A stretch of DNA of 64,000 bases. Origin: Clostridia bacterium (GTDB lineage: Bacteria; Bacillota; Clostridia; Oscillospirales; Acutalibacteraceae). Each line of letters begins with the position of its first letter. Position 1 is the stretch's first letter. The stretch covers positions 1 through 64,000 of the forward strand of contig JAFRJB010000133.1 in the NCBI GenBank assembly GCA_017432485.1. The letters are read 5' to 3'. This document shows, piece after piece, positions 6,201 through 41,704 of this stretch. Below the pieces are notes generated by a model, which ran no database searches, was not told the DNA's origin, and was given only the letters and a program-made list of their open reading frames with translations. The position numbers and the translations under genes were made by a program.

Positions 6201-8201
6201 ATTCAGGTGCACAATCGTTGCCGGACACTTGGAAATGACATCGGCAATATTGGAACTTGTCACCTTTGTGGAGCCGGATAAATCCAAGTAGTTAAGACCT
6301 GTCAGTTTCGTTAAATCCGAGTAATCGGAAATGCCTTTGCGCGTACTGTCCGAGCTCCAATACATGAGACTGACGCGGCGCATAGCGTAGGTATCCAGTT
6401 GGGATGCACTCAAACCGGTCGCATTGACAACACCGTCGCGTATAGTGGAGTTATTAAAGCTGACTGTGGTGGTGCTCGCAAACGGGCTGGTGCTCAGCGA
6501 AGACATTCTGCTGAAGAGGTACTTCAGGTTCATGACTTTAAAAGAGGAACCTTTTTCATATGCTACCGGATGAGTGGAGGCTGAGTAGGCGCCGCAGGAA
6601 AGGGTATTGCCGCTGTAGTTCATTAAGTATTCCACTTCATATTGGTATTGCGCGGGGGTCCAATCCCAGCCCTTCACATATTTAATGTAAGACATAAAGC
6701 TCGCAATCATACCTGCAGCGGCAGGAGTTGCCATAGATGTCCCGTTTTTGGTCTCGTATTCGTTTGTTGCGTAATTGTTATCGGTTGAACTTTTAAGGGA
6801 ATAAATAGAAGTGCCGGGAGCAACGACTTTGTAAAAATTGCCGCTCGTATCGTAGTTCGTGAAAGTGGCAAGTTTCGTTCTGTTGCTGCTGTTTCCCAGT
6901 GCCATAACACCCATCACGCAGGATGCAGCGGAGGGGAAGTGGAGTTTTTCGCTGGTATCAAACGCATCGTTACCGGCAGCGCAGACGATTAAGCTTGTGG
7001 AGGAGACAGTTTGGTAAGTGCGGTAAGTGGCGTAGGAAAAGCTGTAACTGCCTAAACTCATACTAATAATATCGGCGCCGTATTCTTTGGCTTTGTTTAA
7101 ACTGGTAATCAACTCACTGTCAAAGAAAGAACCTTTTCCGGTGTTACGGTCGGCTTTCATGACCATCAGCGAGCACTTGGGCGCCACACCGATACCGCCG
7201 ACCAGATTGTCGCCGCTCATGGCTATCGTGCCGCAGCAGTGAGAACCGTGACCATTGGCATCCATATTTGCCTGATCTTTCAGAATATTTTTACTTTCAT
7301 ACGCATAGTAACCGCACTGACCGGAACTACCTGTCCAAAGATTGTCGCGGATATCTTCATGTGCGGTATTACAGCCTGTATCAATAACTGCTACATTGAT
7401 GCCTTTACCCAAGCCGTAGCCGGTGGTAGTGTCGCCATAGGTTGACCAGGCAGAGGACACTTCGCAGTAGTCAAACCACCACTTCAAGTAATTGGTATAG
7501 CCGGTAGTATTAAAGGCCGCCGGGTCGGTATAACTTGCAACAGAGCTTTCACCGCCTTTTGCGGTGGCAGTCGGTTCCTGCGCAACGGGATCCTGTTGCG
7601 GTTCGGTAGTCTGCTCTTGCACATCGCTTTGCGGCGCAGTGGTTTCTTCTTCCGGCTGCTCGGCGGGTTGGCTGAGGTCTGCCGCTTCGGTTTCATCGCA
7701 GATTTCGTATTTAAAGTTAGGCTGTGCATTAAACACTTCATCGCGCGCATTGAGCGCATCGCACAAAGCGATAATATCATCCTCTTGAGTGCTCATGAAG
7801 TAGGTGGTAAGAATGCTTTCGCCTTCATCAATAGAGGAAACTTGTGCTTCACCTTCATCTTCGAATTCAGTGGTGCTGAGTATTCTTTCTACCTTTAAAT
7901 CAAATTCATCTTCAAAGGAACTGATGCTTGCAGCGGCATTGGAAGGGGAAGAGGTGATTTCTAAAATCAACTCATTTGGTGCATAGTCTCCTTCTTTTGC
8001 CTCGTGGTAATCATACCCCGAGCGCTCGGAGAATTCTTCCAAGTCGTCCGCTTGGATTTGAGCATCCGATTTACCGGCATTGACAGAAGCAGGGTGCGCT
8101 ATCGCATAGCTTTGCCCGGCCGCAGATACCAGGTAGCCGGCACACATCAGCACTGCCAAAAGCAGCGCCAGTGCTTTTCTACTGAATTTTTGAATAGTCA
8201 T
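210..8201 (-). CDS. Giant secreted subtilisin-like (S8) protease with LRR, Cys-rich repeats and dockerin-like C-terminus
   Basis: A predicted secreted serine protease of 2663 aa. The N-terminus is a signal peptide (about residues 1-34), followed by a pro-region and an S8 catalytic domain. The catalytic Asp lies in VIDTG (near 275), His in NGHGSH (near 320) and Ser in GTSMATP (near 488), so the triad is intact. Leucine-rich repeats follow (about 630-775), then Ig-like/beta modules and a helical region. Cys-rich repeats of the pattern PTCTERG...NCSRC...ALGH occur at about 1710-1790 and 2085-2520. A small carboxypeptidase-regulatory-like domain and two dockerin-type calcium loops (DVNADNYID, DLTGDGMIS) end the protein. 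The start has AGAGGT a few bases upstream. It lies 65 bp downstream of a paralogous protease on the same strand, probably in one operon. The dockerin suggests docking to a cohesin-bearing scaffold or surface protein, but no cohesin is visible here. The substrate is unknown. Confidence 0.9.
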   Translation of the reverse strand: MTIQKFSRKALALLLAVLMCAGYLVSAAGQSYAIAHPASVNAGKSDAQIQADDLEEFSERSGYDYHEAKEGDYAPNELILEITSSPSNAAASISSFEDEFDLKVERILSTTEFEDEGEAQVSSIDEGESILTTYFMSTQEDDIIALCDALNARDEVFNAQPNFKYEICDETEAADLSQPAEQPEEETTAPQSDVQEQTTEPQQDPVAQEPTATAKGGESSVASYTDPAAFNTTGYTNYLKWWFDYCEVSSAWSTYGDTTTGYGLGKGINVAVIDTGCNTAHEDIRDNLWTGSSGQCGYYAYESKNILKDQANMDANGHGSHCCGTIAMSGDNLVGGIGVAPKCSLMVMKADRNTGKGSFFDSELITSLNKAKEYGADIISMSLGSYSFSYATYRTYQTVSSTSLIVCAAGNDAFDTSEKLHFPSAASCVMGVMALGNSSNRTKLATFTNYDTSGNFYKVVAPGTSIYSLKSSTDNNYATNEYETKNGTSMATPAAAGMIASFMSYIKYVKGWDWTPAQYQYEVEYLMNYSGNTLSCGAYSASTHPVAYEKGSSFKVMNLKYLFSRMSSLSTSPFASTTTVSFNNSTIRDGVVNATGLSASQLDTYAMRRVSLMYWSSDSTRKGISDYSDLTKLTGLNYLDLSGSTKVTSSNIADVISKCPATIVHLNLKTASPLGNLGCLANAAFSNLHYLNISSNNITTLSSIQKFTSLRYLYANSNAIVDISALSGMTHIERIELNNNQIQDPNPAFASDFLNYIDLSHNKLSDHMQLYNYKGAYHDKDFNSDTINFYVDYNNMTGLTTSVANSIKSTITSNNTVNGTLIAETINFTYSNQTAPTSAVPMTSFKIEDMTVSRDELCSGNLNLNSITGFTAYPSGANQYNYLTWTCSEDGYFGSDGSVLVTPEEITSCRTLTLTGTAPEASGAKSTVTGTASQTIKLTITAPELYNAYLSEHVLQTGNQAGILVATNQYATRVYMKFVKSGSSDTVIYGPMPETTVANGSAKVTMFIIPDSITGTAGNYSCYVYPSTDSGAYATSGNGDVSGKSTSPYKYLGYLYVKDSVETSTADTLNVTYDSKLNRYGQSALYATNCGTTSSSPAKPAGTYSLATAYGTSKFIGGGSYFGAYGAGYFGKTATNYPNAAVTDDATFYIGNSNISTMNVESKISTIAPEVKTVEIRNGTTYKNDGYVEYLVKTNTDATEVKAYSVGTTDDISSDVNHITTTFSSSPGSYANYNATYSYKLWSIKVPLTSSKAMQPVNIVAADPLGDGTATKTPATGLKFNGSQYVYATEQPYKVVGNNLTILPADDEGNSLADCCKSVTYSVSNTDYFSVYSNYNGRINVDMEKVLTDLESTSSQYKYTNITATLESGATATMMLYAYRPIAKSLTYDTELSSLTYGGTVYYTVNTYGSDTIYVRTSSDKYSDPIMTFTLADTDHYTTATDEKGNEYIQWNFTRTFDTGVTTLRTYVRSSLDYSDTQTFNSASYTSNTVNRTLDPGDYSAWEAQLARVEDASVLSALAASYGEQTELYEQRLAAYQDFVNNAVLTYDETQQALIDAQTDALEEKIDTLFGYGDYNDSLEAFAALDNSENAKYIPQTLRDLVAQEATATNRKELSLAIDTILAEIQALIEKTEEVETYLSELETEIPELRGETVPQRFSADTYNTLKAQYDSIKNHLDTLTYASAAELDADYLVLQQARAALHEHNYVPTVTDPTCTERGYTTYSCTGCDASYVTDFTAALGHRWGEWTVTTPATFDQDGEECRVCSRNASHIETRIIPATGSLPHTKIGDATDFTVDVGIADASTGNYKGLIDVSLKIAIDYTQLETDGEKTLRIFNQIISIDPDVVGTVSRARATRGQPNMQAMMDLVAESEYNHINAKQDWAVIASPIAPYEEADEMDMIIFGLSTMSTLTYNPNLDKVLIQLSGYNDLGYLNEDDIDRPEFVVLHLYLALEDGKTLQDAKDAIKLATVADLADSATPGVMDGLSYVTSAEESAGMVNSTTLLFSKDFNPKRDVTFHWYSDGGEEQTTVQPTTEGFVPEGFTPDDYAAGDYTYTFTGWDRELEEVTGDTDYYAQYEETFIGHDYVPAVTLEPTCEVPGVTTYTCSRCGEFYTEPIAALGHNWGDWNETTAPTCEGEGVETRVCQRDANHTETRPVSALGHSWGDWAVTTAPTCEGEGVETRVCQRDANHTETRPVTALGHDYVSTVTNPTCTERGFTTYNCSRCEASYIGDYVDALGHTPKDPVEENRNEPTCEQKGSYDSVVYCSVCEEELSRETKDIPALGHNWGDWVVTTAPTCEGEGVETRVCQRDANHTETRPVTALGHDYVSTVTSPTCTERGFTTYNCSRCEASYIGDYVDALGHTPKDPVEENRNEPTCEQKGSYDSVVYCSVCEEELSRETKDIPALGHNWGDWAVTTAPTCEGEGVETRVCQRDANHTETRPVTALGHDYVSTVTNPTCTEQGYTTYNCSRCEASYIGDYVDALGHNYKDTVIAPTYRNGGYTHHECERCQDMYDDTRTDRLPLYYIVPSLAEQEATLIFKSDDAEYEVTSTDGRFEINDIPVDTYRIYVRADLCLCIAVETYEITDNEYICEETVAMPIGDVNADNYIDFADLSVLLANGIYGCENEQLDLTGDGMISVDDIALALREENYGKASVTIR
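849..1592. repeat. Two near-identical 372-bp tandem repeats inside the protease gene
   Basis: The DNA repeats with an exact 372-bp (124-codon) period, 849-1220 and 1221-1592, with partial copies on both sides (about 741-848 and 1593-1730). Each unit encodes three Cys-containing ALGH submodules. The copies differ at only a few bases (for example NPTC/SPTC, WVVT/WAVT), implying recent duplication or continuing gene conversion. Such near-identity also makes copy number prone to assembly error. Confidence 0.85.
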
Positions 8202-8266
8202 AATTTACCTCTTTCAGTGAATATGTGGGGGTAAATGCTAAAAAACGAATACTTTGTTGTGAGGAA

Positions 8267-30001: not shown

Positions 30002-32776
30002 ATGAAGAAGTTTATTGCATTGTTGTTAGTGGTTTTAACATTGTATTCGGTATTTTCTTTCGCTGTTTTTGCGCAAGAACCTGTGCCGTGTGAGTCGAGC
30101 GAATTGCCTCAAATTGAGTTGAATTTTACGGTGTACAAAAATATGCCGATAGAGAGTGATAACGACTGCGTACATCCGACAGTTCAGCTGTGTTCGGGCG
30201 AAACTTTTCAACTTGAGTCGAATGCGCCAAGCACAACATATGAAGTAAACAAACCGGATTTGATTTCTGTTAATGAAACCGGTCTTTTAAACGTTACAGC
30301 CGTTGATACGATGGATAGTGCTGTTGATCGAGAGGTAAAATTAACTGCAAAAGCGCCGGGGTATTCTGATACGGAATATTGGATTTATATTAACCGTTGT
30401 AACTATCATGAAGACAAAGCCGATTTAAAGCTTTATTTTTTAAATATTAATCAACAAGACGGCTATCGGACTTTAGCGGGTAAAAAAATTAAAGTTTTGT
30501 TCGATTTTAAAAGTGAGAAGGAGCAGTATCAAAATCTGCCGGATGAGCACTCGAAAAATGACTATCAATACAGTGATATCATGCAAAATCAATCCGTATC
30601 GGTTTTTTCTTCCAATGAGGATGTTGCAACAGTCGCTTTTCAACGCATAAAAGACAGGCACATTGATGCGCAGTCGGAAAACTATAACTATATCAAATAC
30701 CTTGATATTGACTGCATTCGCGCGGGTGTGACCACGATTACGGTCGCTACGACAAACGGTTTTCGGGAATCATTTAAACTGTATGTTCAACAAAATGACC
30801 CTGCGCGCAAAGCAATCGGTATCGGAGAAAAATTTGCTCCAAAATATTCGGATGAAAATCCTGCATTTAACCGAAACAACGCTAATATTTCATTTAGCGG
30901 TAAATATGTCGTGGGCAATAAAGTCGGCAAAGCGACAGCTTCTTTGCTATATAACGGCAACAGAGAGCGGATCTATTTTGAAGTGAAAAATGCGCCTGGT
31001 AAAATTGTTTTAAACGCTTCCAATATAGTATTGTTGCCCAACTGTACCTTTGATTTAAACAGTTCCGTACCGAAGGGATGCGCTTCATACAGCAGAAAAT
31101 ACACTTCAGATAACACGAATATTGCCACTGTTCACCCGACAAACGGTCTGGTGAGCGCAAAAAAAACAGGAACCTGTACGATAACTGTTAAAACATATAA
31201 CGGTAAAGTAGCAAAATGTGCAGTCACTGTCATAAGTCAAAAAGATTTAATAACAAAAATTGCACCGGCAGATCCGGCTTCGAAAAGCATTAATCTTGCA
31301 TTGTATCAATCAAGGAAATTGAATATTGAGGTTACGCCTAAAGGTTCTAAAAGTCACGTTAGCTGGTCCGTTGCCGATAAAAAAATCGCATCTGTTTCGG
31401 CACAAGGTGTAGTGACAGGTTTAAAGACCGGTAAAACCACCGTGACAGTTGCTGCTATTGACGGGAGCAGCAAAAGCCTCACATATACGCTGACTGTTAC
31501 GGCGAGAAAAGGCTCAAACAGCCTGAGCACAAAAAATTGCACAGTTGTAAACACAAATAAAACAGCATACCCATATGCGCAAATGTGCAAAGATATTACG
31601 AGCCTAAAGCAGAAATATCCTTATATTTTTGATTATGTCAAACTCGGCACAAGCTATGATAATCGAGGCATATTTGAAATTGTAATTGGCAATAAAAACG
31701 CCAAAAATAAGGTGTTTGTTCAAGCTTCTATTCATGCAAGGGAATACATTAATTCCATGCTGGTAATGAAGCAGGCGGAAACCTTATGCGCCAATTACTA
31801 TACGGGAACCTACAGGGGCAGATATTATAGTGAAATGTTGGATAACTGCTGTTTTTATATTATTCCGATGGCCAATCCCGATGGCGTCAACATCAGTATT
31901 TACGGAGCAAAAGGAATTAATGACAAAACGCTGCGTTCCAAAGTTGTCGGTTTATGTAACAAATACGGCTCAGGAAGTTCTTACTATTACACGCAGTGGA
32001 AAGCAAACGCCAGAGGTGTGGATTTAAACAGGAATTGGGACTGCAATTGGAACAGAGGCAGAAATGCAATTAACTATGCTTGCGCTGAAGGGTATAAAGG
32101 TCCTTCTCCCGCTTCCGAAAAAGAGAGCAAAATCCTAAAAAAAGAGGTTGAAAGATTAAAACCGAAAGCAGTTATCAGTTATCACTCTTTCGGCTCCGTG
32201 ATTTATTGGGATTTTATTCAGTCCGGTTCGCTGCAAAGAAAATGCTCTGATTTGTTTCGCTTAACAAGCAATCTTACAGGTTACTCTTCTGCGGAAAACC
32301 CGAGTGCTTACGGATACTCTCCATCTATACTTGCTCCATGTTTTGGCGATTGGGTTGCCAATGTTAAAAAAATTCCCACATTAACTATTGAGACCGGTAG
32401 AGTGGCATGCCCGATTTCGGCAAGTTATTTTCCCGGTATTTGGAAAGAAAACCAACATGTTTTACCGGCTATCGCTTATTATGCTTTGAATGATACCGCT
32501 GTGAATGTCGGTTCGGTAATAGCAGCGCGCAAAGGGTTTGTTCTGTCAGCCTCGAAAAGTAGTGCCAAAAACTTTGCTTATCAAATTGCTTATAGCACAA
32601 ACTCGAATTTTGACAATGCCAAATATGTAGAGTTTTCCGCAAGCAGCGGTAGTTTAAAAATCTCTAATCTGAAAGCAAATAAAAAGTATTATGTTTGTAT
32701 CAGAACTGTCAAGAAATACGGATTGATTGCTTTTTACGGCAGATGGTCATCAGTCAAAAGTTGCAAAACAAAGTGA
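30002..32776 (+). CDS. Secreted M14 zinc carboxypeptidase with bacterial Ig-like domains
   Basis: A 924-aa exported protein: signal peptide (MKKFIALLLVVLTLYSVFSF, cut near Ala24), several Big_2-type Ig-like modules (for example SDNTNIATVHPTNGLVSAKK and WSVADKKIASVSAQGVVTG), an M14 peptidase domain and a C-terminal fibronectin III-like module. The zinc ligands are HARE (His and Glu near 579 and 582) and a His in ISYHSFG (near 728); the catalytic Glu is in TIETGR (near 797). The substrate-binding segment GVDLNRNWDCNW is present. It probably trims peptides or cell-wall peptide stems outside the cell. The ribosome binding site is weak. No sortase motif or dockerin is visible. Confidence 0.92.
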   Translation: MKKFIALLLVVLTLYSVFSFAVFAQEPVPCESSELPQIELNFTVYKNMPIESDNDCVHPTVQLCSGETFQLESNAPSTTYEVNKPDLISVNETGLLNVTAVDTMDSAVDREVKLTAKAPGYSDTEYWIYINRCNYHEDKADLKLYFLNINQQDGYRTLAGKKIKVLFDFKSEKEQYQNLPDEHSKNDYQYSDIMQNQSVSVFSSNEDVATVAFQRIKDRHIDAQSENYNYIKYLDIDCIRAGVTTITVATTNGFRESFKLYVQQNDPARKAIGIGEKFAPKYSDENPAFNRNNANISFSGKYVVGNKVGKATASLLYNGNRERIYFEVKNAPGKIVLNASNIVLLPNCTFDLNSSVPKGCASYSRKYTSDNTNIATVHPTNGLVSAKKTGTCTITVKTYNGKVAKCAVTVISQKDLITKIAPADPASKSINLALYQSRKLNIEVTPKGSKSHVSWSVADKKIASVSAQGVVTGLKTGKTTVTVAAIDGSSKSLTYTLTVTARKGSNSLSTKNCTVVNTNKTAYPYAQMCKDITSLKQKYPYIFDYVKLGTSYDNRGIFEIVIGNKNAKNKVFVQASIHAREYINSMLVMKQAETLCANYYTGTYRGRYYSEMLDNCCFYIIPMANPDGVNISIYGAKGINDKTLRSKVVGLCNKYGSGSSYYYTQWKANARGVDLNRNWDCNWNRGRNAINYACAEGYKGPSPASEKESKILKKEVERLKPKAVISYHSFGSVIYWDFIQSGSLQRKCSDLFRLTSNLTGYSSAENPSAYGYSPSILAPCFGDWVANVKKIPTLTIETGRVACPISASYFPGIWKENQHVLPAIAYYALNDTAVNVGSVIAARKGFVLSASKSSAKNFAYQIAYSTNSNFDNAKYVEFSASSGSLKISNLKANKKYYVCIRTVKKYGLIAFYGRWSSVKSCKTK

Positions 32777-32938: not shown

Positions 32939-32968
32939 ATAGTATATTAAGTTTTATGGAGTAGAATG

Positions 32969-34141
32969 ATGAAACATACTTTTGAAAACAACACATTAAC
33001 CGTGTATTTGGCAGGCAGGATTGATTCCTCCAATGCTGCCGATGTGGAAAAGGAAATTCTCGATATCGGCTTTGCGCCGGATGTGAAGGTCATTGTAGAT
33101 ATGCAAGATCTTGAGTACATATCCAGTGCCGGTTTGCGCGTGATCCTCCGACTGAAAAAGTCCAATGCCGACACCGAGATTATCAATGCCTGCTCGGATG
33201 TTTACGAGATTTTTGATATGACCGGTTTTACCGAGCTGATGTCCATCAGCAAGGCATACCGCGAAATCAGTGTAGAGGGCTGCGAAATCATCGGTGAGGG
33301 CGCCAACGGTTTAGTTTACCGCATTGATGCCGATACAATTATTAAGGTTTACAAAAACCCCGATTCGCTCGATGAAATTCACAACGAGCGCGAATTGGCG
33401 CGCAAGGCGTTTGTGATGGGCATTCCTACCGCTATTCCGTATGATGTGGTGAAAGTCGGCAATTTATACGGCTCTGTGTTTGAACTGCTCAACGCCGAGG
33501 GCTTTGCCAAACTGTTGATTGAAGACCCGTCGCGCAGCGATGAACTCGCCAAAGAGAGTGTGGAAATTCTCAAAGCCATTCACTCCACGCACTTAAAGCC
33601 GGGTGAGTTACCGGATAAAAAGAAAACAGCCATCCGCTGGGCAGAGCATACCAAAGCCTATGTTGACCCTGCAGTCGGTGACAAGATTTTAGAGATGATG
33701 AAGGCTATTCCCGATACCGATACCATGCTGCACGGCGACTACCATATTAAGAATATTATGAAGCAAAACGGTGAAAACCTGCTCATTGATATGGATACAC
33801 TGGCAATGGGGCATCCGATTTTCGAATTTGCCGGTATCTTTATGGCATATGTCGCTTTCAGCAGTGTTGACCGCGACAATGTGAAAGGCTTTTTGGGCAT
33901 TGATTACGAGTGCGCCGTGCAATTTTGGAAATCGACTTTAAAGTATTACTTTGAAGGCAAAGACCAAGCCTTTATCGATGATGTCGAAAAGAAGGCGGCA
34001 ATGATTTGCTTTACGCGGTTGGTGCGCAGGACCGCCGAAAAGGTAGGGCTTGACAAACCGGGCGCTCGAGCATTTTTTGAGTATTGTAAAAACTATCTTG
34101 AAACCAACATTGATACAGTAGATTCGCTGTACTTTGAATAG
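32969..34141 (+). CDS. STAS domain fused to an aminoglycoside-phosphotransferase-fold kinase (TIGR02172-like)
   Basis: A 390-aa two-domain protein. Residues 1-98 form an anti-sigma-antagonist STAS domain with the phospho-acceptor segment YISSAGLRV (Ser near 51-52). Residues 105-390 form a kinase of the APH/choline-kinase fold: Gly-rich loop IIGEGANGLVYRI, Lys in IIKVYK, catalytic loop LHGDYHIKNIM (near 254) and metal Asp in LIDMDTLAMGHP (near 273). All core residues are present, so activity is plausible. The kinase resembles the TIGR02172 family; the substrate is unknown and the protein is unlikely to be an antibiotic-resistance enzyme. The second of two adjacent ATGs is chosen (7 nt after GGAG). 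The next two genes are a free STAS protein and a phosphatase/anti-sigma-kinase fusion, which points to a role in partner switching. Confidence 0.85.
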   Translation: MKHTFENNTLTVYLAGRIDSSNAADVEKEILDIGFAPDVKVIVDMQDLEYISSAGLRVILRLKKSNADTEIINACSDVYEIFDMTGFTELMSISKAYREISVEGCEIIGEGANGLVYRIDADTIIKVYKNPDSLDEIHNERELARKAFVMGIPTAIPYDVVKVGNLYGSVFELLNAEGFAKLLIEDPSRSDELAKESVEILKAIHSTHLKPGELPDKKKTAIRWAEHTKAYVDPAVGDKILEMMKAIPDTDTMLHGDYHIKNIMKQNGENLLIDMDTLAMGHPIFEFAGIFMAYVAFSSVDRDNVKGFLGIDYECAVQFWKSTLKYYFEGKDQAFIDDVEKKAAMICFTRLVRRTAEKVGLDKPGARAFFEYCKNYLETNIDTVDSLYFE

Positions 34142-34150
34142 GAGGAGCAA

Positions 34151-34447
34151 ATGGATATTACAAAAGAAATTAACGGTAGTAAAATGACTGTCAAAATTAA
34201 CGGTAGGTTAGATACAAACTCCGCGCCCGAGCTCGAAAGCGAAGTTATGGAGAATATTGAAGGCATTGAAGAGTTGGTCTTTGATTTATCGCAAATGCCC
34301 TATACTTCTTCGGCGGGCTTGAGAGTGTTCCTCAAAGCGCAAAAGCAAATGAATAAGCAGGGGAGCATGAGCGTTATCGGCGCGTGTGAAGATGTGCTTG
34401 AAGTGTTTGAAATTACCGGTTTTTCCGATATTATTAATATTGCATAA
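34151..34447 (+). CDS. STAS-domain anti-sigma factor antagonist
   Basis: A 98-aa single STAS domain (RsbV/SpoIIAA type). The phospho-acceptor segment MPYTSSAGLRVFLKA (Ser near 54) is intact. In partner-switching systems the unphosphorylated protein sequesters an anti-sigma kinase. AGGAGG precedes the ATG. It is sandwiched between the STAS-kinase fusion (9-bp gap) and the phosphatase/ATPase fusion (9-bp gap), whose phosphatase domain presumably acts on it. Confidence 0.92.
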   Translation: MDITKEINGSKMTVKINGRLDTNSAPELESEVMENIEGIEELVFDLSQMPYTSSAGLRVFLKAQKQMNKQGSMSVIGACEDVLEVFEITGFSDIINIA

Positions 34448-34456
34448 GATTTTTAT

Positions 34457-36499
34457 ATGAGTTTGCTGAAAAAGCTTAGAAGAAGCCTATCGTTTAATAT
34501 TATCGCCGCCATTGTATTAGTGTTGGTGTTTTTCAGTGCAGTCGTTACGACCATCGGCTATATCAGTTTTATCCATGCGCTGGAAAAAGAGTATAACGAA
34601 ACGACTTTTGCGATTTGCGACACGGCGGCTTCTTTGTTTGATGCCGACAAGTTAGATGAGTATCTTGCCACTAAAGGGCAAACGCAAGATTATAAGCAGG
34701 CGTTGCGGCGCATGGATAATCTGTGCGACAAAATGAATGTATCACTGATTTATGTCATTCAAGTTGATACATCCGATTACAACAGTTTTACTTCCATTTT
34801 AAACTCTATTAACCCCGAAACAACCGACTACATTCGCTGGGAAATCGGTTATAAGCGCCAGACCACCAATGATGAGTACAAAGAGATTTACAAAAGGCTC
34901 TACACGAAAGAAACTTCGCAAGAGTACATTTTGAGAACTTCTCATTTAAACGGCGCGCCGCCTCACATCACTTCTTTGATTCCCGTAAAAAACAGCAAAG
35001 ATGACGTGGTAGGGGTTTTGTGCGTGCAGCGGCCTTTATCTGCACTCGAAGCCGGGCGAAAACCGTATTTGGCATCGGTTGCTGCTTCTGTTGTGATAAC
35101 CTCTGTTTTGGTGGCATTCTTTGTGGTCAATTTCTTCTCGAAGCAGTTTACCAAACCGATACGCTGTATTAAAGATGAAGCAAAGCGTTTTTCGCAGGAA
35201 CAAACGCTCGGAAAGCGCGATAAACTAACGCGGCTGAGCAAAATAGATGATATTGAAATTTTGGCGAATTCCATCGAAAAGATGGAACAAGATACGCTAA
35301 GTTATATTGATAACCTGACAGCGGCAACTTCCGAAAAGGAGAGAATCGGTGCAGAGCTGAATGTAGCAAAAAATATTCAAGAAAACTCAATTCCGAATAC
35401 TTTCCCGGCGTTTCCGGACAAAACGCAGTTTGACATTTATGCCAGTATGACTCCGGCAAAAGAAGTGGGCGGCGATTTTTACGACTTTTTCTTTATTGAT
35501 GATCATCATTTAGGCTTTACGATGGCGGATGTTTCCGGTAAGGGTGTTCCTGCGGCGCTGTTTATGATGGTGACAAAGATTTTAATTAAAGAGCGCAGCA
35601 CCATATCCGGCGGGACTCCGGCGGAAATACTTGAGTTTGTCAATTCGCGCATTTGTGAAAATAATAGTTCGGATATGTTTGTCACGGTTTGGTTCGGTAT
35701 TTTGGATATTCATACCGGCACCGTTACGGCGGCAAACGCCGGTCACGATGACCCCGCGGTTTATCGCAAAGACAAGGGCTTTAGCTTTTTTAATACGAAA
35801 CACGGCTTGGTCATTGGCGCGCTGGAAAACTGCAAATATCATAATTATGAAATACATTTAAAACCGGGCGATAAGATTTTCTTATATACCGATGGTGTAA
35901 CGGAAGCGACCAATGAGCATGATGAACTGTTTACCGCGAAAAATTTGCTCAAAACGCTCAATACTGTCTGCGAAAGCAGTCCGGAAGAGATTTTAAAAGA
36001 GGTGAAAACGGGAATCGACCGCTTTGTGGGCTATGTCCCGCAGTTTGATGATTTAACTATGCTTTGTTTAGAATTTAAAGGTGACAACGGTGCCCCGCAA
36101 AAGGCGCTGCATATTCAAGCCAATACCGCTAATTTAGATGAAGTCAATTCGTTTTTGTGTGCATATTTAGAAGCGGTTGGCTGCCCGCACAGAGCGCAAA
36201 TGCAAATCGGGCTGGCGGCAGAGGAAATCTTCACGAATATTTCCAACTATGCTTATGCGCCGGATAAGGGCTTTGCCGATATTCGCTTAGACTGCGAAGA
36301 GAATGCTGTGAGCATTGTGTTTGAAGACAGCGGTGTTCCTTATGACCCGCTCAAAAAAGAGGATCCGGACATTACTTTGAGTGCCGGTGAGCGGCAAATT
36401 GGCGGTTTGGGCATTTATATGACCAAAAAGCTGATGGATGATGTACAATACGAGTACAAGGACAATAAAAATATCCTCAAACTCATCAAGAAATTCTGA
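34457..36499 (+). CDS. Membrane sensor with RsbU/SpoIIE phosphatase fused to an RsbW-type ATPase domain
   Basis: A 680-aa protein. Membrane segments at about 13-37 and 207-229 bracket an extracytoplasmic sensor region. A HAMP-like linker and coiled coil (about 230-300) follow, then a PP2C/SpoIIE phosphatase with its metal Asp residues in GGDFYD (near 338), ADVSGKG, DGVTEA and DDLTML. The C-terminus (about 555-680) is an HATPase_c domain with the N-box EEIFTNISNYAY (near 590), DSGVPYDP and GGLGIYMTKKL. Phosphatase and opposing serine-kinase activities thus sit in one chain. The expected substrate is the adjacent STAS protein. No sigma factor is encoded nearby. The start codon has only a poor ribosome binding site. 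Confidence 0.9.
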   Translation: MSLLKKLRRSLSFNIIAAIVLVLVFFSAVVTTIGYISFIHALEKEYNETTFAICDTAASLFDADKLDEYLATKGQTQDYKQALRRMDNLCDKMNVSLIYVIQVDTSDYNSFTSILNSINPETTDYIRWEIGYKRQTTNDEYKEIYKRLYTKETSQEYILRTSHLNGAPPHITSLIPVKNSKDDVVGVLCVQRPLSALEAGRKPYLASVAASVVITSVLVAFFVVNFFSKQFTKPIRCIKDEAKRFSQEQTLGKRDKLTRLSKIDDIEILANSIEKMEQDTLSYIDNLTAATSEKERIGAELNVAKNIQENSIPNTFPAFPDKTQFDIYASMTPAKEVGGDFYDFFFIDDHHLGFTMADVSGKGVPAALFMMVTKILIKERSTISGGTPAEILEFVNSRICENNSSDMFVTVWFGILDIHTGTVTAANAGHDDPAVYRKDKGFSFFNTKHGLVIGALENCKYHNYEIHLKPGDKIFLYTDGVTEATNEHDELFTAKNLLKTLNTVCESSPEEILKEVKTGIDRFVGYVPQFDDLTMLCLEFKGDNGAPQKALHIQANTANLDEVNSFLCAYLEAVGCPHRAQMQIGLAAEEIFTNISNYAYAPDKGFADIRLDCEENAVSIVFEDSGVPYDPLKKEDPDITLSAGERQIGGLGIYMTKKLMDDVQYEYKDNKNILKLIKKF

Positions 36500-36540
36500 T
36501 TTGTGCGTTTTCGTGGCACATTTCAATAAAAAAAGTCAAA

Positions 36541-36569
36541 AAACACTGTCACTCTTGACAGTGTTTTTT
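36541..36569 (+). terminator. Intrinsic terminator of the partner-switching locus
   Basis: AAACACTGTCA (36541-36551) pairs with TGACAGTGTTT (36556-36566), followed by further T, for an 11-bp perfect stem with a CTCT loop. It closes the three-gene locus 41 bp after the stop. Confidence 0.85.
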
Positions 36570-36590: not shown

Positions 36591-36622
36591 ATAAAGTGAA
36601 TAAAACTATAGGAGTAGTGAAT

Positions 36623-37123
36623 ATGGATAATATTAAATCTGTTGTGTTTTCTGCGCTACCGCAAACTTTTGAAGAGTTTCAGGCTCTGCCGCAGATTACC
36701 ATGGCTACCCCGCATGATACAGCGGCACTGTGTGTAGCTGCATTATGCGCTTATCCGAACAATAAAGAGGGGGCACTGCAAATGCTTGATTATCTGCGGG
36801 GACCGCGCCCGTTGAGTCAATTTGAAAAGCAGTTTATTGCCGACCGCTTTATGGATGGTAAAGATTATATCCCGCGCTCTTATTTCAGCGGTGCTGTTCC
36901 GACAAATGATTATACGCCGGCGCAGCCGTTAACTTTGCTTATCGGTGAAAATCCTTATTCGTATCAAAACGAAGGTTACGCAAAGTTACTGCTCAAATCC
37001 GGCGGAGCAGATACCCCGCGCGAAATTGTTCTGCGCTTAGCCAAAGACGGAAAATGGTATTTGTGGGACCAATTTTTGCTCGCCGGTATTCGCGAACCGG
37101 AAAGCGCCAATCCGTGGGCGTAA
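36623..37123 (+). CDS. DUF6935-like protein of unknown function
   Basis: A 166-aa soluble protein without signal or membrane segment. The segment LRGPRPLSQFEKQFIADRFM followed by KDYIPRSYFSGA and the YTP...PLTLLIGENPYSY region match what I recall of the DUF6935 family. I start at MDNIKS, 8 nt after GGAG; an upstream in-frame ATG at 36596 lies right at the promoter. It sits between a signalling locus and a membrane-stress-like module, with its own probable promoter. Function unknown. Confidence 0.8.
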   Translation: MDNIKSVVFSALPQTFEEFQALPQITMATPHDTAALCVAALCAYPNNKEGALQMLDYLRGPRPLSQFEKQFIADRFMDGKDYIPRSYFSGAVPTNDYTPAQPLTLLIGENPYSYQNEGYAKLLLKSGGADTPREIVLRLAKDGKWYLWDQFLLAGIREPESANPWA

Positions 37124-37161
37124 AAGTTTATTGATTTTCTCTGTTTTTATAAAAGAATTTG

Positions 37162-37189
37162 TTGAAACAGGGTGAATATATAGTATAAT
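37162..37189 (+). promoter_or_regulatory. Promoter of the SPFH/zinc-ribbon/TPM module
   Basis: TTGAAA (37162-37167), a 16-bp spacer and a consensus TATAAT (37184-37189), 37 bp before the SPFH start. It looks like an ordinary sigma-A promoter, not the ECF-type AAC/CGT pattern seen in Bacillus sigma-W operons. Confidence 0.65.
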
Positions 37190-37226
37190 CAAGATATAAC
37201 TAAATCATTGGAAAGGATTGATTACT

Positions 37227-38582
37227 ATGGGACTTATTAAAGCAGGCGTTGGCGCACTTGGCGGCGCTATGGCAGACCAGTGGAAAGAGTTTTTCTACTG
37301 TGATTCGTTAGAGAAAAATGTTTTGGTTGTCAAAGGGCAAAAGAAAACAGGTTCTCGCTCTTCCAACACAAAGGGGAACGACAATATTATTTCAAACGGT
37401 TCCCTGATTGCGGTTGCCGATGGTCAGTGTATGATTATCGTAGAGCAGGGCAAGATTGTTGAAGTTTGCGCTGAACCCGGTGAATTTACTTATGATACTT
37501 CGACCGAACCGAGCGTTTTTGCCGGCAGTCTCGGCACCAGCATTGTCGATACATTTAAGACTATCGGCAAGCGTTTTACCTTTGGCGGCGATACCGCGAA
37601 GGATCAGAGAGTGTATTATTTTAATACCAAAGAATTGATAGATAATAAGTTTGGTACCCCGAACCCGATTCCGTTTAGAGTTGTTGATAAAAATATCGGC
37701 TTGGATATCGATGTTTCCATTCGCTGCAGCGGTGTGTATTCCTACAAAATTACCGACCCGCTTCTTTTCTACACCAATGTTTGCGGTAATGTAGAGCAGG
37801 CGTATACCAGAGAAGAGATTGATACCCAACTGAAGACCGAATTCATCAGCGCATTGCAGCCGGCATTCGGTAAACTCAGTGAGTTGGAATTAAGACCGAA
37901 TCAGATTGTTTCTCACTCCACTGATTTGGAAAATGCCATGAATGAAGCACTCACTTCCAAATGGTCCGGTTTAAGAGGTCTCTCCGTTGTGTCGATTGCA
38001 TTGAATCCCATCACACTTCCCGAAGAGGATGCAGAGCTTATCAAGCAGGCACAGCGCACGGCAATTATGCGCGACCCGACTATGGCAGGCGCAACCCTTG
38101 TCGGCGCTCAGGCGGATGCGATGAAAGCTGCCGCTGCCAACGAAGGTGGTGCGATGAACGGCTTTATCGGTATGGGTATGGCAATGAATGCCGGCGGAAT
38201 GGGCGGCATGAATGCTTCTAACCTCTTTGCTATGGGACAACAGCAGCAAGCGCAACAGCAGCAGTATCAACAACCCCAGCAGCAGGCACCTCAAGCTCCC
38301 GCAGCGGGTGCGTGGACTTGCTCTTGCGGTGCGCAGGCGACCGGCAAGTTCTGCCCGAATTGCGGTAAAGCGAAACCGGAACCGCAGGCGGCTGACGGCT
38401 GGACCTGCCAGTGCGGCACAGTCAATCAGGGCAGATTCTGCCAGAATTGCGGCGCGCAAAAACCTGCCGGTGCCCCGATTTATAAATGCGACAAATGCGG
38501 CTGGACCCCTGCTGACCCGCATAATCCGCCTAAATTCTGTCCTGAATGCGGCGATCCTTTTGATACCAATGATATGCAGTAA
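37227..38582 (+). CDS. SPFH-domain protein with C-terminal zinc ribbons, YdjI-like
   Basis: A 451-aa protein. The N-terminal two-thirds is an SPFH/band-7-like domain of the YdjI type (MADQWKEFFYCDSL near the start, then IRCSGVYSYKITDPLLFY and ISALQPAFGKLSELELRPNQI). A Gly/Met-rich stretch and a Gln-rich linker (about 335-355) lead to three zinc ribbons with CxC/CxxC pairs (WTCSCG...FCPNCG, WTCQCG...FCQNCG, YKCDKCG...FCPECG). Bacillus YdjI works with PspA, YdjG and YdjH at stressed membranes. Here YdjG- and YdjH-like genes follow, but no PspA. I use the ATG 10 nt after GAAAGG; a TTG three codons upstream is possible. Confidence 0.88.
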   Translation: MGLIKAGVGALGGAMADQWKEFFYCDSLEKNVLVVKGQKKTGSRSSNTKGNDNIISNGSLIAVADGQCMIIVEQGKIVEVCAEPGEFTYDTSTEPSVFAGSLGTSIVDTFKTIGKRFTFGGDTAKDQRVYYFNTKELIDNKFGTPNPIPFRVVDKNIGLDIDVSIRCSGVYSYKITDPLLFYTNVCGNVEQAYTREEIDTQLKTEFISALQPAFGKLSELELRPNQIVSHSTDLENAMNEALTSKWSGLRGLSVVSIALNPITLPEEDAELIKQAQRTAIMRDPTMAGATLVGAQADAMKAAAANEGGAMNGFIGMGMAMNAGGMGGMNASNLFAMGQQQQAQQQQYQQPQQQAPQAPAAGAWTCSCGAQATGKFCPNCGKAKPEPQAADGWTCQCGTVNQGRFCQNCGAQKPAGAPIYKCDKCGWTPADPHNPPKFCPECGDPFDTNDMQ

Positions 38583-38590
38583 TAAAAATA

Positions 38591-38612
38591 GGAGGGCAAA
38601 GTGTTGCCCTCC
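38591..38612 (+). terminator. Hairpin between the SPFH and DUF4428 genes, weak terminator or processing site
   Basis: A perfect 9-bp stem GGAGGGCAA/TTGCCCTCC with loop AGTG, followed by TGCCTTTC and not a true T-run. It may attenuate transcription or protect the upstream mRNA. Confidence 0.4.
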
Positions 38613-38645
38613 TGCCTTTCATATTTATAATTAAGGAGAAATACT

Positions 38646-39677
38646 ATGGGACTTTTTGATAAGAAAGAATGTGCGATTTGCGGCAAATCCGTCGGCTTAT
38701 TAGGCGCCAGAAAAGTGGAAGACGGCACCATTTGTTCGGATTGCACCAAGAAACTTTCACCTTTTTTCAGTGAGAGAAAAAAATCGACAGTAGCCGATAT
38801 TAAAGCACAGTTGGATTACAGAGAGCAAAACCGCCAAAATCTCAATTACTTTAATCCTTCAAGAGTTTACGGAAACGGCACTAAAATTTATTTTGATGAT
38901 GCGCAACGTAAATTCTGTGTTACCCACAAGAGCGATTACCGCGCGGCAAATGCGGATTTAATTGATTACTCGCAGGTGACAAGTGCAACCTACAGAGTGG
39001 ATGAAGACAGAACCGAGCGCTATCGTACCGATGCACAGGGTAATAAGGTATCCTACAGCCCGCCGCAGTATGATTGCAGCTATGAATTTGAAATTTATCT
39101 TAGTATTAACAGCCCGTATTTTAGCGAAATCAGGTTTGATTTAACCGGCACATTCGGCAGACCAAACAGCCAATTTACCGATGAATACCGCCGCTTGGAA
39201 CAGATGGCAAATGAAATTGTTTCCACCTTTGGCGGCAGCGGTACAGGACCGATGGGCGGCAGTTTCGGTGTCGGCATGGGCTCCGGTATCGGCGGCGCAG
39301 TTGCTGCCGGAATCGGTGCGGCAATCAACGGCTTTCAACAGCAGCCGATGCAGGGCGGTTATCAGCAGATGAACAACCAGCCGATGCAGGGCGGTTATCA
39401 GCAGATGAACAACCAACCGATGCAGCAGGGTTACCAGCAGCAACAGCCGATGCAGCAAGGCTACCAGCAACAACAGCCGATGCAGCAGGGGTATCAACAG
39501 CAGCCGATGCAGCAGGGCTATCAGCAACAACAGCCGATGCAGCAGGGGTATCAACAGCAGCAACAACCACCGATGCAGCAGCCGCAACAACAGCAGCCGA
39601 TGCAGTGGACTTGCCCGAATTGCGGCAGCATTAACTCGACTAACTTCTGCCAAAACTGCGGCACACCAAAGCCGTAA
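38646..39677 (+). CDS. DUF4428 zinc-ribbon protein with Gln/Met-rich repeats
   Basis: A 343-aa protein. The N-terminus is a treble-clef-like zinc site of the DUF4428 type (CAICGKSVGLLGARK...CSDC, residues 8-33). A middle domain of unknown fold (about 60-195) includes IYFDDAQRKFCVTHKSDY. A Gly-rich hydrophobic stretch (about 197-230) precedes low-complexity repeats of the form QQPMQQGYQQ (about 231-318), and a terminal zinc ribbon (WTCPNCG...FCQNCG) ends the protein. The ribosome binding site is AAGGAG. Sharing both ribbons and Gln-rich linker with its neighbours suggests joint assembly. Function unknown. Confidence 0.82.
   Translation: MGLFDKKECAICGKSVGLLGARKVEDGTICSDCTKKLSPFFSERKKSTVADIKAQLDYREQNRQNLNYFNPSRVYGNGTKIYFDDAQRKFCVTHKSDYRAANADLIDYSQVTSATYRVDEDRTERYRTDAQGNKVSYSPPQYDCSYEFEIYLSINSPYFSEIRFDLTGTFGRPNSQFTDEYRRLEQMANEIVSTFGGSGTGPMGGSFGVGMGSGIGGAVAAGIGAAINGFQQQPMQGGYQQMNNQPMQGGYQQMNNQPMQQGYQQQQPMQQGYQQQQPMQQGYQQQPMQQGYQQQQPMQQGYQQQQQPPMQQPQQQQPMQWTCPNCGSINSTNFCQNCGTPKP
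39339..39603. repeat. Low-complexity CAGCCGATGCAGCAGGG-type coding repeat
   Basis: About nine imperfect units of roughly 24-33 bp built on CAGCCGATGCAG and GG(T/C)TA(T/C)CAGCAGCAA encode the QQPMQQGYQQ tract. Unit lengths vary in multiples of 3, so the reading frame is kept. Prone to slippage and copy-number change. Confidence 0.75.
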
Positions 39678-39690
39678 GCGAGGCTTGCGC

Positions 39691-39756
39691 AGTGAATAGT
39701 GAATAGTGAATAATTTCGGGCGGGACACCCGCACCCGATTATGAAGCATTATTCAT
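39691..39756. repeat. Heptad array and hairpin (AGTGAAT units)
   Basis: Three exact AGTGAAT units (39691-39711). The last one runs into a hairpin in which GTGAATAAT pairs with ATTATTCAT across an inner CGGG/CCCG stem. This is the same 7-nt periodicity as at 22539, 41750, 44778 and 53270, but with different unit sequence. It lies between two genes of the module. Confidence 0.6.
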
Positions 39757-39774
39757 TTTTGATGAGGAGGAACT

Positions 39775-40890
39775 ATGGCAGCTAATCTTGATTATAAATG
39801 CTTAGCGTGCGGCGGAAACCTTGAGTTTGATACCGCAACGCAAAAAATGAAATGTCCGTACTGCGGTTCTACGTTTGATGTGAGTGAATTGCAGCAGATG
39901 GATACTGTTTTGGACACACAGCAGGCGGATATGGGGCAACCGCAACAGCCGCAGCAGCCGCAAGGGGATTCTTTTGATTGGAATACCTCCGGCGGCGAGC
40001 AGTGGATGGAAAACGATATGAATGTTTTTGTCTGCAAATCCTGCGGCGGTGAAATTGTAGCGGACCCGACTACGGCGGCAACTTCTTGCCCGTATTGCGG
40101 CAATGCGACCGTTCTCAGCGGCAGGCTTTCCGGTGTGCTTAAACCGAACTATGTGATTCCCTTTAAACTCAATAAGGAGCAGGCAAAAGCAAAACTCAAA
40201 GAGTACACAAGTAACCGCAAATTTGCCCCGAGAGCTTTTAAGGATGAAAACCGCTTAGAAGAAATAAAAGGCGTGTATGTACCGTTTTGGTTGTTTGATT
40301 CCAATATCAATGCCTCTGTGCAATATGAAGGTACGACGGTCAGAACCTGGCGCGACAGTAAATATCAGTATACCGAAACAAGTTTTTATGATATCTACCG
40401 CCAAGGCAATATGAGTTTTAACAATATTCCGGTTGACGGTTCCACCAAAATGCCGGATGACTTAATGGAATCCATTGAGCCGTTTAACTTTGCTGAAGCA
40501 GTTGATTTCCAAACCGCTTACCTTGCCGGTTATCTTGCCGATAAGTATGATGTGGGAATGGAAGAGAGTATTCCCAGAGCCAACGAGAGAATTAAACATT
40601 CCGCGGAAGATACCTTGCGCGGTACGGTGCAGGGCTATGCTACCGTTACCCCGCGCTTTAGTTCGGTGCAGTTGCTCAACGGTGTTTCCAAGTACGCACT
40701 TTATCCGGTTTGGATTTTAAATACCGACTATAAGGGCGAAAAATACACCTTTGCCATGAATGGGCAAACCGGTAAGTTTGTCGGTAATTTGCCGATTGAT
40801 AAAGGCAAGTTATGGGGACTCTTTGCCGGTGTGGCGGCAGGTGTCGGTGCGTTAACATATTTAATTTGTATGTTATTAAATCTTTTTTAG
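39775..40890 (+). CDS. Membrane-anchored zinc-ribbon protein, YdjG-like
   Basis: A 371-aa protein with two TFIIB-type zinc ribbons, CLACGG...CPYCGS (residues 9-31) and CKSCGG...CPYCGN (about 87-108), separated by a short Gln/Pro-rich linker (QPQQPQQPQ). A long middle domain contains VYVPFWLFD, the conserved segment of this family, and a C-terminal membrane anchor (LWGLFAGVAAGVGALTYLIC) ends the protein. This matches the architecture of Bacillus YdjG, which recruits PspA with YdjH. AGGAGG lies upstream of the ATG and the TPM gene follows 13 bp later. Confidence 0.86.
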   Translation: MAANLDYKCLACGGNLEFDTATQKMKCPYCGSTFDVSELQQMDTVLDTQQADMGQPQQPQQPQGDSFDWNTSGGEQWMENDMNVFVCKSCGGEIVADPTTAATSCPYCGNATVLSGRLSGVLKPNYVIPFKLNKEQAKAKLKEYTSNRKFAPRAFKDENRLEEIKGVYVPFWLFDSNINASVQYEGTTVRTWRDSKYQYTETSFYDIYRQGNMSFNNIPVDGSTKMPDDLMESIEPFNFAEAVDFQTAYLAGYLADKYDVGMEESIPRANERIKHSAEDTLRGTVQGYATVTPRFSSVQLLNGVSKYALYPVWILNTDYKGEKYTFAMNGQTGKFVGNLPIDKGKLWGLFAGVAAGVGALTYLICMLLNLF

Positions 40891-40903
40891 GAGGTGCAGT
40901 GAG

Positions 40904-41704
40904 ATGAAAAAATTATTATCAATCAGCTTGGTTCTTTTGCTCATTGCAGCTCTTATGGTGCCTGCGTTTGCAGCAGAAGAAAAGAAATACTGTGTAGATG
41001 ATTGCGGTTTTTTGCAGGAAAATGAGTTAAGTGAGGTCGAAAACCGTCTTGCTACACTCAGTGACAAAATGAATATGGATTTTGTTGTTGTCACGACCGA
41101 TAATTTGGAAGGCAAAACCAAAACGGCATATGCCGATGATTATTATGACTACAATGGCTATGGTGAAGGCAGACAAGGCGACAGAAGCGGTGTGTTACTG
41201 CTTGTTTACAAACTCAGTGACGGCAGCACCGAGCGCTGGATTAGCACCCGCGGCTATGGTATTACCGCTTTTACGGACTACGGCATCCAATATGTCGGTA
41301 AGCAGTTAGTGCCGCTGATGGATGACGGTCAGTGGAAAGAAGCGTTTCTGCTCTATGCCGATTTGTCGGAAGATTTGGTCAATCGCGCCAATGAAGGCAA
41401 ACCGTTAGATTCCAACAATGCGCCGAAACAGCACAATGTATTCATGGGCGTTGTGATTGCGTTAGTAGTCGGTTTATTGGTGGCTTTCATTGTGATGAGC
41501 AGTATCAAGAAAAAATATAAGCCCGTTACTTTCAAGGCAAATGCAACCGATTATTTGGTAGGCGGCTCTTTGAATGTTACCGGTGCTTACGATAACTTCA
41601 GAACGACATCGGTCACCAGAACAGCCATTCAGAGTAATTCCGGCGGCGGTTCTTCGACCCACAGGTCTTCTTCCGGTGCTTCGCACGGAGGCGGCGGATT
41701 CTAA
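40904..41704 (+). CDS. TPM-domain membrane protein, YdjH-like
   Basis: A 266-aa protein with a signal peptide (to about residue 23), an extracytoplasmic TPM domain (about 25-165: YCVDDCGFLQENELSEVENRLATL, MDFVVVTTDNL, DRSGVLLLVY, ISTRGYGITAF), one membrane segment (about 170-192), then a cytosolic tail ending in SSGASHGGGGF. That Ser/Gly/His tail is typical of TPM proteins of this group. Position after a YdjG-like gene matches the Bacillus ydjGH order. The domain is linked to membrane-stress complexes; enzymatic activity is uncertain. Confidence 0.88.
   Translation: MKKLLSISLVLLLIAALMVPAFAAEEKKYCVDDCGFLQENELSEVENRLATLSDKMNMDFVVVTTDNLEGKTKTAYADDYYDYNGYGEGRQGDRSGVLLLVYKLSDGSTERWISTRGYGITAFTDYGIQYVGKQLVPLMDDGQWKEAFLLYADLSEDLVNRANEGKPLDSNNAPKQHNVFMGVVIALVVGLLVAFIVMSSIKKKYKPVTFKANATDYLVGGSLNVTGAYDNFRTTSVTRTAIQSNSGGGSSTHRSSSGASHGGGGF

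Follow-up and report, generated by a model that had tools for sequence, protein, structure and literature searches.

What does a bacterial partner switch, a device normally in charge of stress and sporulation genes, control when its antagonist, phosphatase and kinase are encoded together with an enzyme of the antibiotic-kinase fold? The question is raised by a compact operon in a 64,000-nucleotide stretch of DNA (the window; positions 1 to 64,000 of contig JAFRJB010000133.1, assembly GCA_017432485.1) from Clostridia bacterium, an anaerobic gut-type bacterium. The operon spans positions 32966–36499 of the (+) strand and consists of three open reading frames (ORFs) on that strand, at 32966–34141 (391 amino acids), 34151–34447 (98 amino acids) and 34457–36499 (680 amino acids), with intergenic gaps of 9 nucleotides each. 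(Two ATG codons adjoin at the start of gene 1; 32966 is the first and 32969 the second.) Gene 1, here called S*-APH, encodes an APH-fold kinase with a STAS domain at its N terminus; gene 2, S, encodes a free STAS protein of the antagonist type; and gene 3, U-W, encodes a putative membrane sensor with PP2C phosphatase (U) and RsbW-type kinase (W) domains. The reading favored here, with a probability of about 0.68, is that this is a self-contained partner-switching operon in which the APH-fold kinase is the effector, and that an HD or PHP hydrolase acts on the same metabolite pool in most relatives.

The original prediction for this locus had described three consecutive genes, for STAS plus an APH-fold kinase, a free STAS protein, and a membrane phosphatase joined to an ATPase, and Pfam matches, motifs and hydrophobic segments bear this out. 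In S*-APH, the STAS match (6.6e-11) covers residues 8–97 (32987–33256) and the APH match (1.1e-15) marks a kinase core at residues 107–296 (33284–33853). S matches STAS at 2.5e-16 and scores above the cut-off of the anti-sigma-antagonist model TIGR00377, and U-W matches SpoIIE (8.1e-48; 35498–36076) and HATPase_c_2 (8.7e-22; 36116–36490). Two hydrophobic segments lie ahead of the phosphatase (residues 7–42 and 203–231), so U-W is likely a membrane protein; its PP2C and HATPase domains do share one chain, in which no receiver domain was matched. The STAS motifs of S*-APH (ISSAGL) and S (TSSAGL) are intact, as are the catalytic loop HGDYHIKN and the metal-binding IDMDT of the APH kinase (residues 256–278; 33731–33799), the PP2C motifs VGGDFYDF, ADVSGKG, TDG and FDD, and the HATPase motifs EEIFTN, DSG and GGLG, which rules out a decayed enzyme. 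The predicted phosphosite is Ser54 in both STAS domains (codons 33125–33127 in S*-APH and 34310–34312 in S), which by motif corresponds to Ser58 of SpoIIAA. S54 is invariant across 53 S*-APH sequences, together with H256, D258, H260, N263 and D275; SSAG is at least 97% conserved among 59 free STAS neighbors; and the metal-binding aspartates of PP2C and the N-box, DxG and GGLG of the HATPase are conserved across all loci. A loss of catalytic residues in homologs, which the original prediction had regarded as fatal, was looked for, and the residues proved to be conserved. Neither chance nor artefact can account for the three genes, given the E-values and the conservation among relatives.

What kind of kinase does S*-APH carry? 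Against PF01636 it scores 58.5 bits (gathering cut-off 23.2), and motifs and fold agree in placing it in the APH phosphotransferase superfamily. TIGR02172 is matched over its full length at 6e-33, but the score of 114.5 bits falls below the cut-off of 228.2, and the protein is not a member of that family. The AlphaFold2 (AF2) model of S*-APH, with a predicted local distance difference test score (pLDDT) of 95.5, has Foldseek matches to MTR kinase and APH(2'') and to aminoglycoside and capreomycin phosphotransferases; as modeled, the kinase domain is folded like small-molecule kinases. (From an AF2 model of a STAS/APH/W triple fusion, the domain folds were taken and no domain arrangement was concluded.) The likeness to aminoglycoside and capreomycin phosphotransferases could mean that S*-APH serves in drug resistance or detoxification and that the switch does no more than regulate it. 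However, identity to these enzymes is 14–16%, searches of 72,556 plasmids and 50,697 phage records found no S*-APH, and the kinase is coupled to dedicated HD or PHP hydrolases in its relatives (see below), all of which makes this explanation barely tenable; a drug-resistance gene as such was rejected on the missing plasmid and phage relatives. The relatives of S*-APH are patchy and occur mainly in rumen and gut Clostridia. In the window's family, 18 of 150 genomes have S*-APH; for the class the figure is 24 of 391, at a threshold that HD-APH fusions also pass, and for a phylum sample it is 5 of 398, at a stricter one. Scanning named genomes yielded at least 562 relatives, the best 80 of which are nearly all from bins, mostly of rumen, other gut or faeces, labeled as Clostridia, Oscillospiraceae, Lachnospiraceae, Erysipelotrichaceae, Treponema and similar (bin labels are not always reliable). 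An arrangement confined to the window is ruled out by these relatives.

Do the three genes work together, or are they mere neighbors? Partners were counted within 3 kb and on the same strand in 77 loci with at least 3 kb of flank on both sides. The genes of the relatives are mechanical ORFs with uncertain starts, from incomplete bins, and the profiles used to label their domains were seeded with the window proteins or their neighbors; a partner missing near a contig end is not thereby missing from the genome. At least one of S, U or W lies near S*-APH in 59 of the 77 loci (S in 38, U in 35, U-W in 22, free W in 12, and W fused to S*-APH in 22); close relatives are overrepresented in this set, and the fractions should not be read as estimates for the whole family. 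Apart from the window, the same three-gene order was seen only in its genus mate (L022), in L026 (same genome as L072) and in L187. The rarity of this order indicates that the components are conserved and their order is not; the linkage beyond this genome that the original prediction called for thus holds for the association, with the order itself kept in few loci.

Within this association, W occurs in three placements: on U, free-standing, and on S*-APH itself. The S*-APH-W fusion is found in 36 of 113 relatives, and its W is 43–64% identical to that of the window (median identity 57%, compared with 46% for the W of other U-W proteins, so that it is no more distant than these). To find the same W on the phosphatase in one genome and on the kinase in another is a usual sign of functional coupling. 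On a tree of the 113 S*-APH sequences (from a short search, with many weak forks), W placement changes at least 13 times, and since the association is kept throughout, S*-APH is likely the effector of the switch. The kinase had been proposed as a second output or input; in view of the fusion it is probably the switched output, and an input role forms part of a rival explanation considered below. That the genes do no joint work, and that S*-APH carries its STAS domain as a passive part, could be argued from the rarity of the window order and from 12 of the 77 loci, mostly of more distant S*-APH relatives, in which no recognized partner is nearby. Nevertheless, the covalent joining of kinase and W, the persistence of the association through so many rearrangements and the invariance of Ser54 in S*-APH make this very unlikely.

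Could the output be a sigma factor after all? In the classical arrangement, W would be an anti-sigma factor for a distant sigma factor, S would be its antagonist, and S*-APH would be a second antagonist or an input that tunes the switch. W does fall in the RsbW/SpoIIAB-like HATPase_c_2 group, and S passes the antagonist model. On the other hand, no sigma factor was recognized in the operon and none recurs among the neighbors of 97 loci (distant genes were not searched), the sigF-type operon of the window's genome carries its own SpoIIAA/AB-like pair, and the W–S*-APH fusion points to the kinase as the partner of W. A classical sigma output is accordingly unlikely. The original prediction had suspected as much from the lack of a sigma factor nearby, and this lack extends to the recurrent neighbors, but absence nearby excludes no distant sigma factor.

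What, then, does the kinase act on? A direct handle comes from two hydrolase subfamilies that belong to the system in most relatives and that the original prediction missed, being absent from the window. Unsupervised clustering of neighbor families in the 97 loci revealed an HD protein of ~190 amino acids, directly upstream of S*-APH on the same strand in 31 loci, and a PHP protein of ~290 amino acids, mostly directly downstream, in ~22 loci. In the HD protein, the match is to the hydrolase region of RelA/SpoT (TIGR00691, 2e-27), and the residues that hydrolysis should require do not vary; a lone RelA/SpoT-type HD domain with these residues is what characterizes small alarmone hydrolases, an activity that is predicted here. 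The PHP protein matches NF041577 (3',5'-nucleoside bisphosphate phosphatase) over near full length with 111 bits (4.8e-32), which, with a cut-off of 400, makes it related to that group and not a member. The two never occur together (Fisher p 8e-4, 77 loci) and are exchanged at least five times on the S*-APH tree. This split is largely correlated with the W fusion, but a mere reflection of it was rejected on the repeated changes and on L178 and L181, where HD occupies the usual PHP position, downstream of S*-APH-W.

The link also holds at the level of whole genomes. Eight of the 150 family genomes have the HD subfamily (E ≤ 1.7e-76; the next matches, near 1e-32, are long RelA/SpoT homolog (RSH) proteins), and all eight have S*-APH (p 8e-9); six have the PHP subfamily (E ≤ 8e-129; next match at 4e-76), again all with S*-APH (p 1e-6). 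One or the other is present in 14 of 18 genomes with S*-APH and in none of the 132 others (p 2e-16; these p-values ignore kinship among genomes). In two genomes (G015 and G087), hydrolase and S*-APH are on different contigs, so the link is more than adjacency. In the class sample, S*-APH or HD-APH is present in seven of eight genomes with a strong HD match, in two of these as a direct HD-APH fusion. The HD link is strong and not absolute, since one genome (G465) has a strong HD match and no detected S*-APH, and weaker HD relatives (≤216 bits) occur without an adjoining S*-APH. HD is fused to APH without STAS in G262 and G286, the following gene in G262 encoding a MazG-type nucleotide pyrophosphohydrolase, and PP2C is fused to HD in L132 and L137. 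At the locus level, a RelA/SpoT-type HD domain fused to APH without STAS was seen at L197:6062-8061, with MazG next, and at L172:1477-2973. A further locus (L190:5167-9415) contains two S*-APH copies, each after a protein that resembles tyrosine phosphatases and bears the motif VPNARQLGGY (the first matches Pfam Y_phosphatase3 at 1e-53); this is possibly another alternative hydrolase.

Characterized small alarmone hydrolases cleave (p)ppGpp, pppApp and NADPH (PMC9765508), and for the PHP relatives annotation gives 3'-phosphorylated nucleotides as substrates. That two unrelated hydrolases alternate next to one kinase, and that one of them is also found fused to it, suggests a metabolite pool common to kinase and hydrolase. 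A working scheme can be drawn up from these parts. The membrane sensor U-W would read a signal at the membrane and set the phosphorylation state of Ser54 in S, and probably also in the S*-APH STAS domain, W adding the phosphate and PP2C removing it. W would swap between free S and S*-APH, and its binding to, or phosphorylation of, the STAS domain of S*-APH would switch kinase activity. The kinase, judging from its fold, would most likely act on a small molecule, and a dedicated phosphohydrolase, either HD (RelA/SpoT-type) or PHP, would in most relatives work on the same pool; the genus of the window would lack this enzyme or use a general one instead. In favor of the kinase as effector stand the invariant phosphosite and catalytic residues, the association with S, U and W, the fusion of W to S*-APH, the modeled kinase fold, the HD/PHP link, and the HD-APH and PP2C-HD fusions; HsbA–HsbD and SiaC–SiaD provide precedents for enzyme outputs.

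Several points weigh against this reading. The small-molecule substrate is deduced from the modeled fold, and APH-fold kinases can act on proteins; the loci lacking a recognized partner have already been mentioned; and neither hydrolase subfamily was found in the window's genome or in its genus mate, so the hydrolase link is not directly applicable to the window. (A hydrolase of either subfamily elsewhere in the window's genome was considered; what turned up was one long RSH, a 743-amino-acid frame, and two generic PHP proteins with 33% identity.) The window therefore represents either a reduced system or one served by a general hydrolase. A bolder and rather doubtful possibility is that S*-APH is the writer, and HD or PHP the interchangeable eraser, of a phosphorylated nucleotide-like messenger. 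If so, a membrane-sensing partner switch would directly set a new alarmone-type signal, and the window's genus would have the dedicated writer only.

The operon appears to be closed by a strong intrinsic terminator-like stem-loop at 36538–36569 (14 pairs, a loop of 4 and a T-rich tail; + strand, working on either strand), and a promoter scan gave little beyond chance level. Upstream of the operon lies a large M14 carboxypeptidase with Big_2 domains (30002–32776), flanked on its other side by five clustered tRNA genes; no counterpart of the carboxypeptidase was found in the genus-mate locus L022. The downstream block (36596–41704) encodes DUF6935, an SPFH/band 7 protein with zinc ribbons and further zinc-ribbon proteins, and is syntenic, together with the operon, in L022. 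Among relatives, DUF218 membrane proteins adjoin S*-APH downstream in seven loci (L028, L088, L091, L109, L140, L148 and L183), and MATE transporters with a C-terminal HATPase_c_2 domain lie near it in three (L119:3249-5021, L036:4658-6415 and L109:9488-11260). The same transporter fusion occurs in the window's own genome (L062:11579-13324); the N-box Asn, DxG and GGLG of the fused domain are degenerate, and its role may therefore be docking rather than kinase activity. This transporter of the window's genome belongs to a second partner-switch cluster (L062, C67:1-20000, ~5.3–15.3 kb), with a STAS gene, a 1976-amino-acid nonribosomal peptide synthetase (NRPS; two AMP-binding, condensation and terminal reductase-like domains) and another U-W. 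Elsewhere in this genome (L060, C120:16000-32000; 4959–8258, minus strand), a free STAS gene (ISSAGL) directly precedes that of a 995-amino-acid NRPS-like protein with AMP-binding and condensation domains; partner-switch parts thus stand beside NRPS genes more than once.

How does the system compare with those already known? With RsbU/RsbV/RsbW and SpoIIE/SpoIIAA/SpoIIAB it shares a PP2C phosphatase, a STAS protein with its phosphosite Ser conserved, and an HATPase kinase, all encoded together and with intact motifs. It differs in having U and W as one membrane protein, in a second STAS domain on an APH-fold kinase, and in an operon with no recognized sigma factor. The proposal that fusing U to W makes one bifunctional switch is in keeping with the intact domains, but such fusions with a STAS partner are already known, as in HsbR (PMC6482189) and SypE/SypA (PMC10120452), and so are enzyme outputs: HsbA acts on the diguanylate cyclase HsbD (PMC6482189), and the output of SiaA/B/C/D in Pseudomonas is the diguanylate cyclase SiaD (PMC8457831). 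A search of full-text literature, which leaves most subscription papers outside its coverage, gave no paper on the STAS-APH fusion or on this gene set; no description was found of a STAS-bearing APH-fold kinase serving as effector, of W joined to such a kinase or of a link between it and HD or PHP enzymes. Partner switches are seen mainly as controls of sigma factors, with a few diguanylate cyclase outputs; in this system, a kinase with the fold of antibiotic kinases and a STAS domain of its own seems to take the effector role. Its tight genomic link with two unrelated hydrolases from families that act on nucleotides offers a direct handle on its substrate, and possibly on a second messenger new to science in anaerobes of rumen and gut, and the system would give a joint purpose to many genes separately annotated as "STAS", "SpoIIE" or "APH".

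The HsbR/HsbA/HsbD (Pseudomonas), CrsR/CrsA (Shewanella) and SypE/SypA (Vibrio) systems likewise have phosphatase and kinase in one chain with a free STAS partner, but theirs carry receiver domains and take phosphorelay input, whereas the window has a membrane sensor region and adds an APH-fold kinase carrying its own STAS domain. SiaA/B/C/D is similar in that the output is an enzyme, and differs in the type of enzyme and in that S*-APH has the STAS domain in its own chain. From TIGR02172 and other APH-fold phosphotransferases, with which it shares a full-length match and the Brenner-type HGDxHxxN and D-x-D motifs, S*-APH is set apart by its score below the cut-off and by the STAS domain in front. 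Finally, the HD proteins of the relatives (not of the window) resemble small alarmone hydrolases in their RelA/SpoT region and invariant catalytic residues, but unlike these they are tied to an APH kinase, and are sometimes fused to APH or PP2C.

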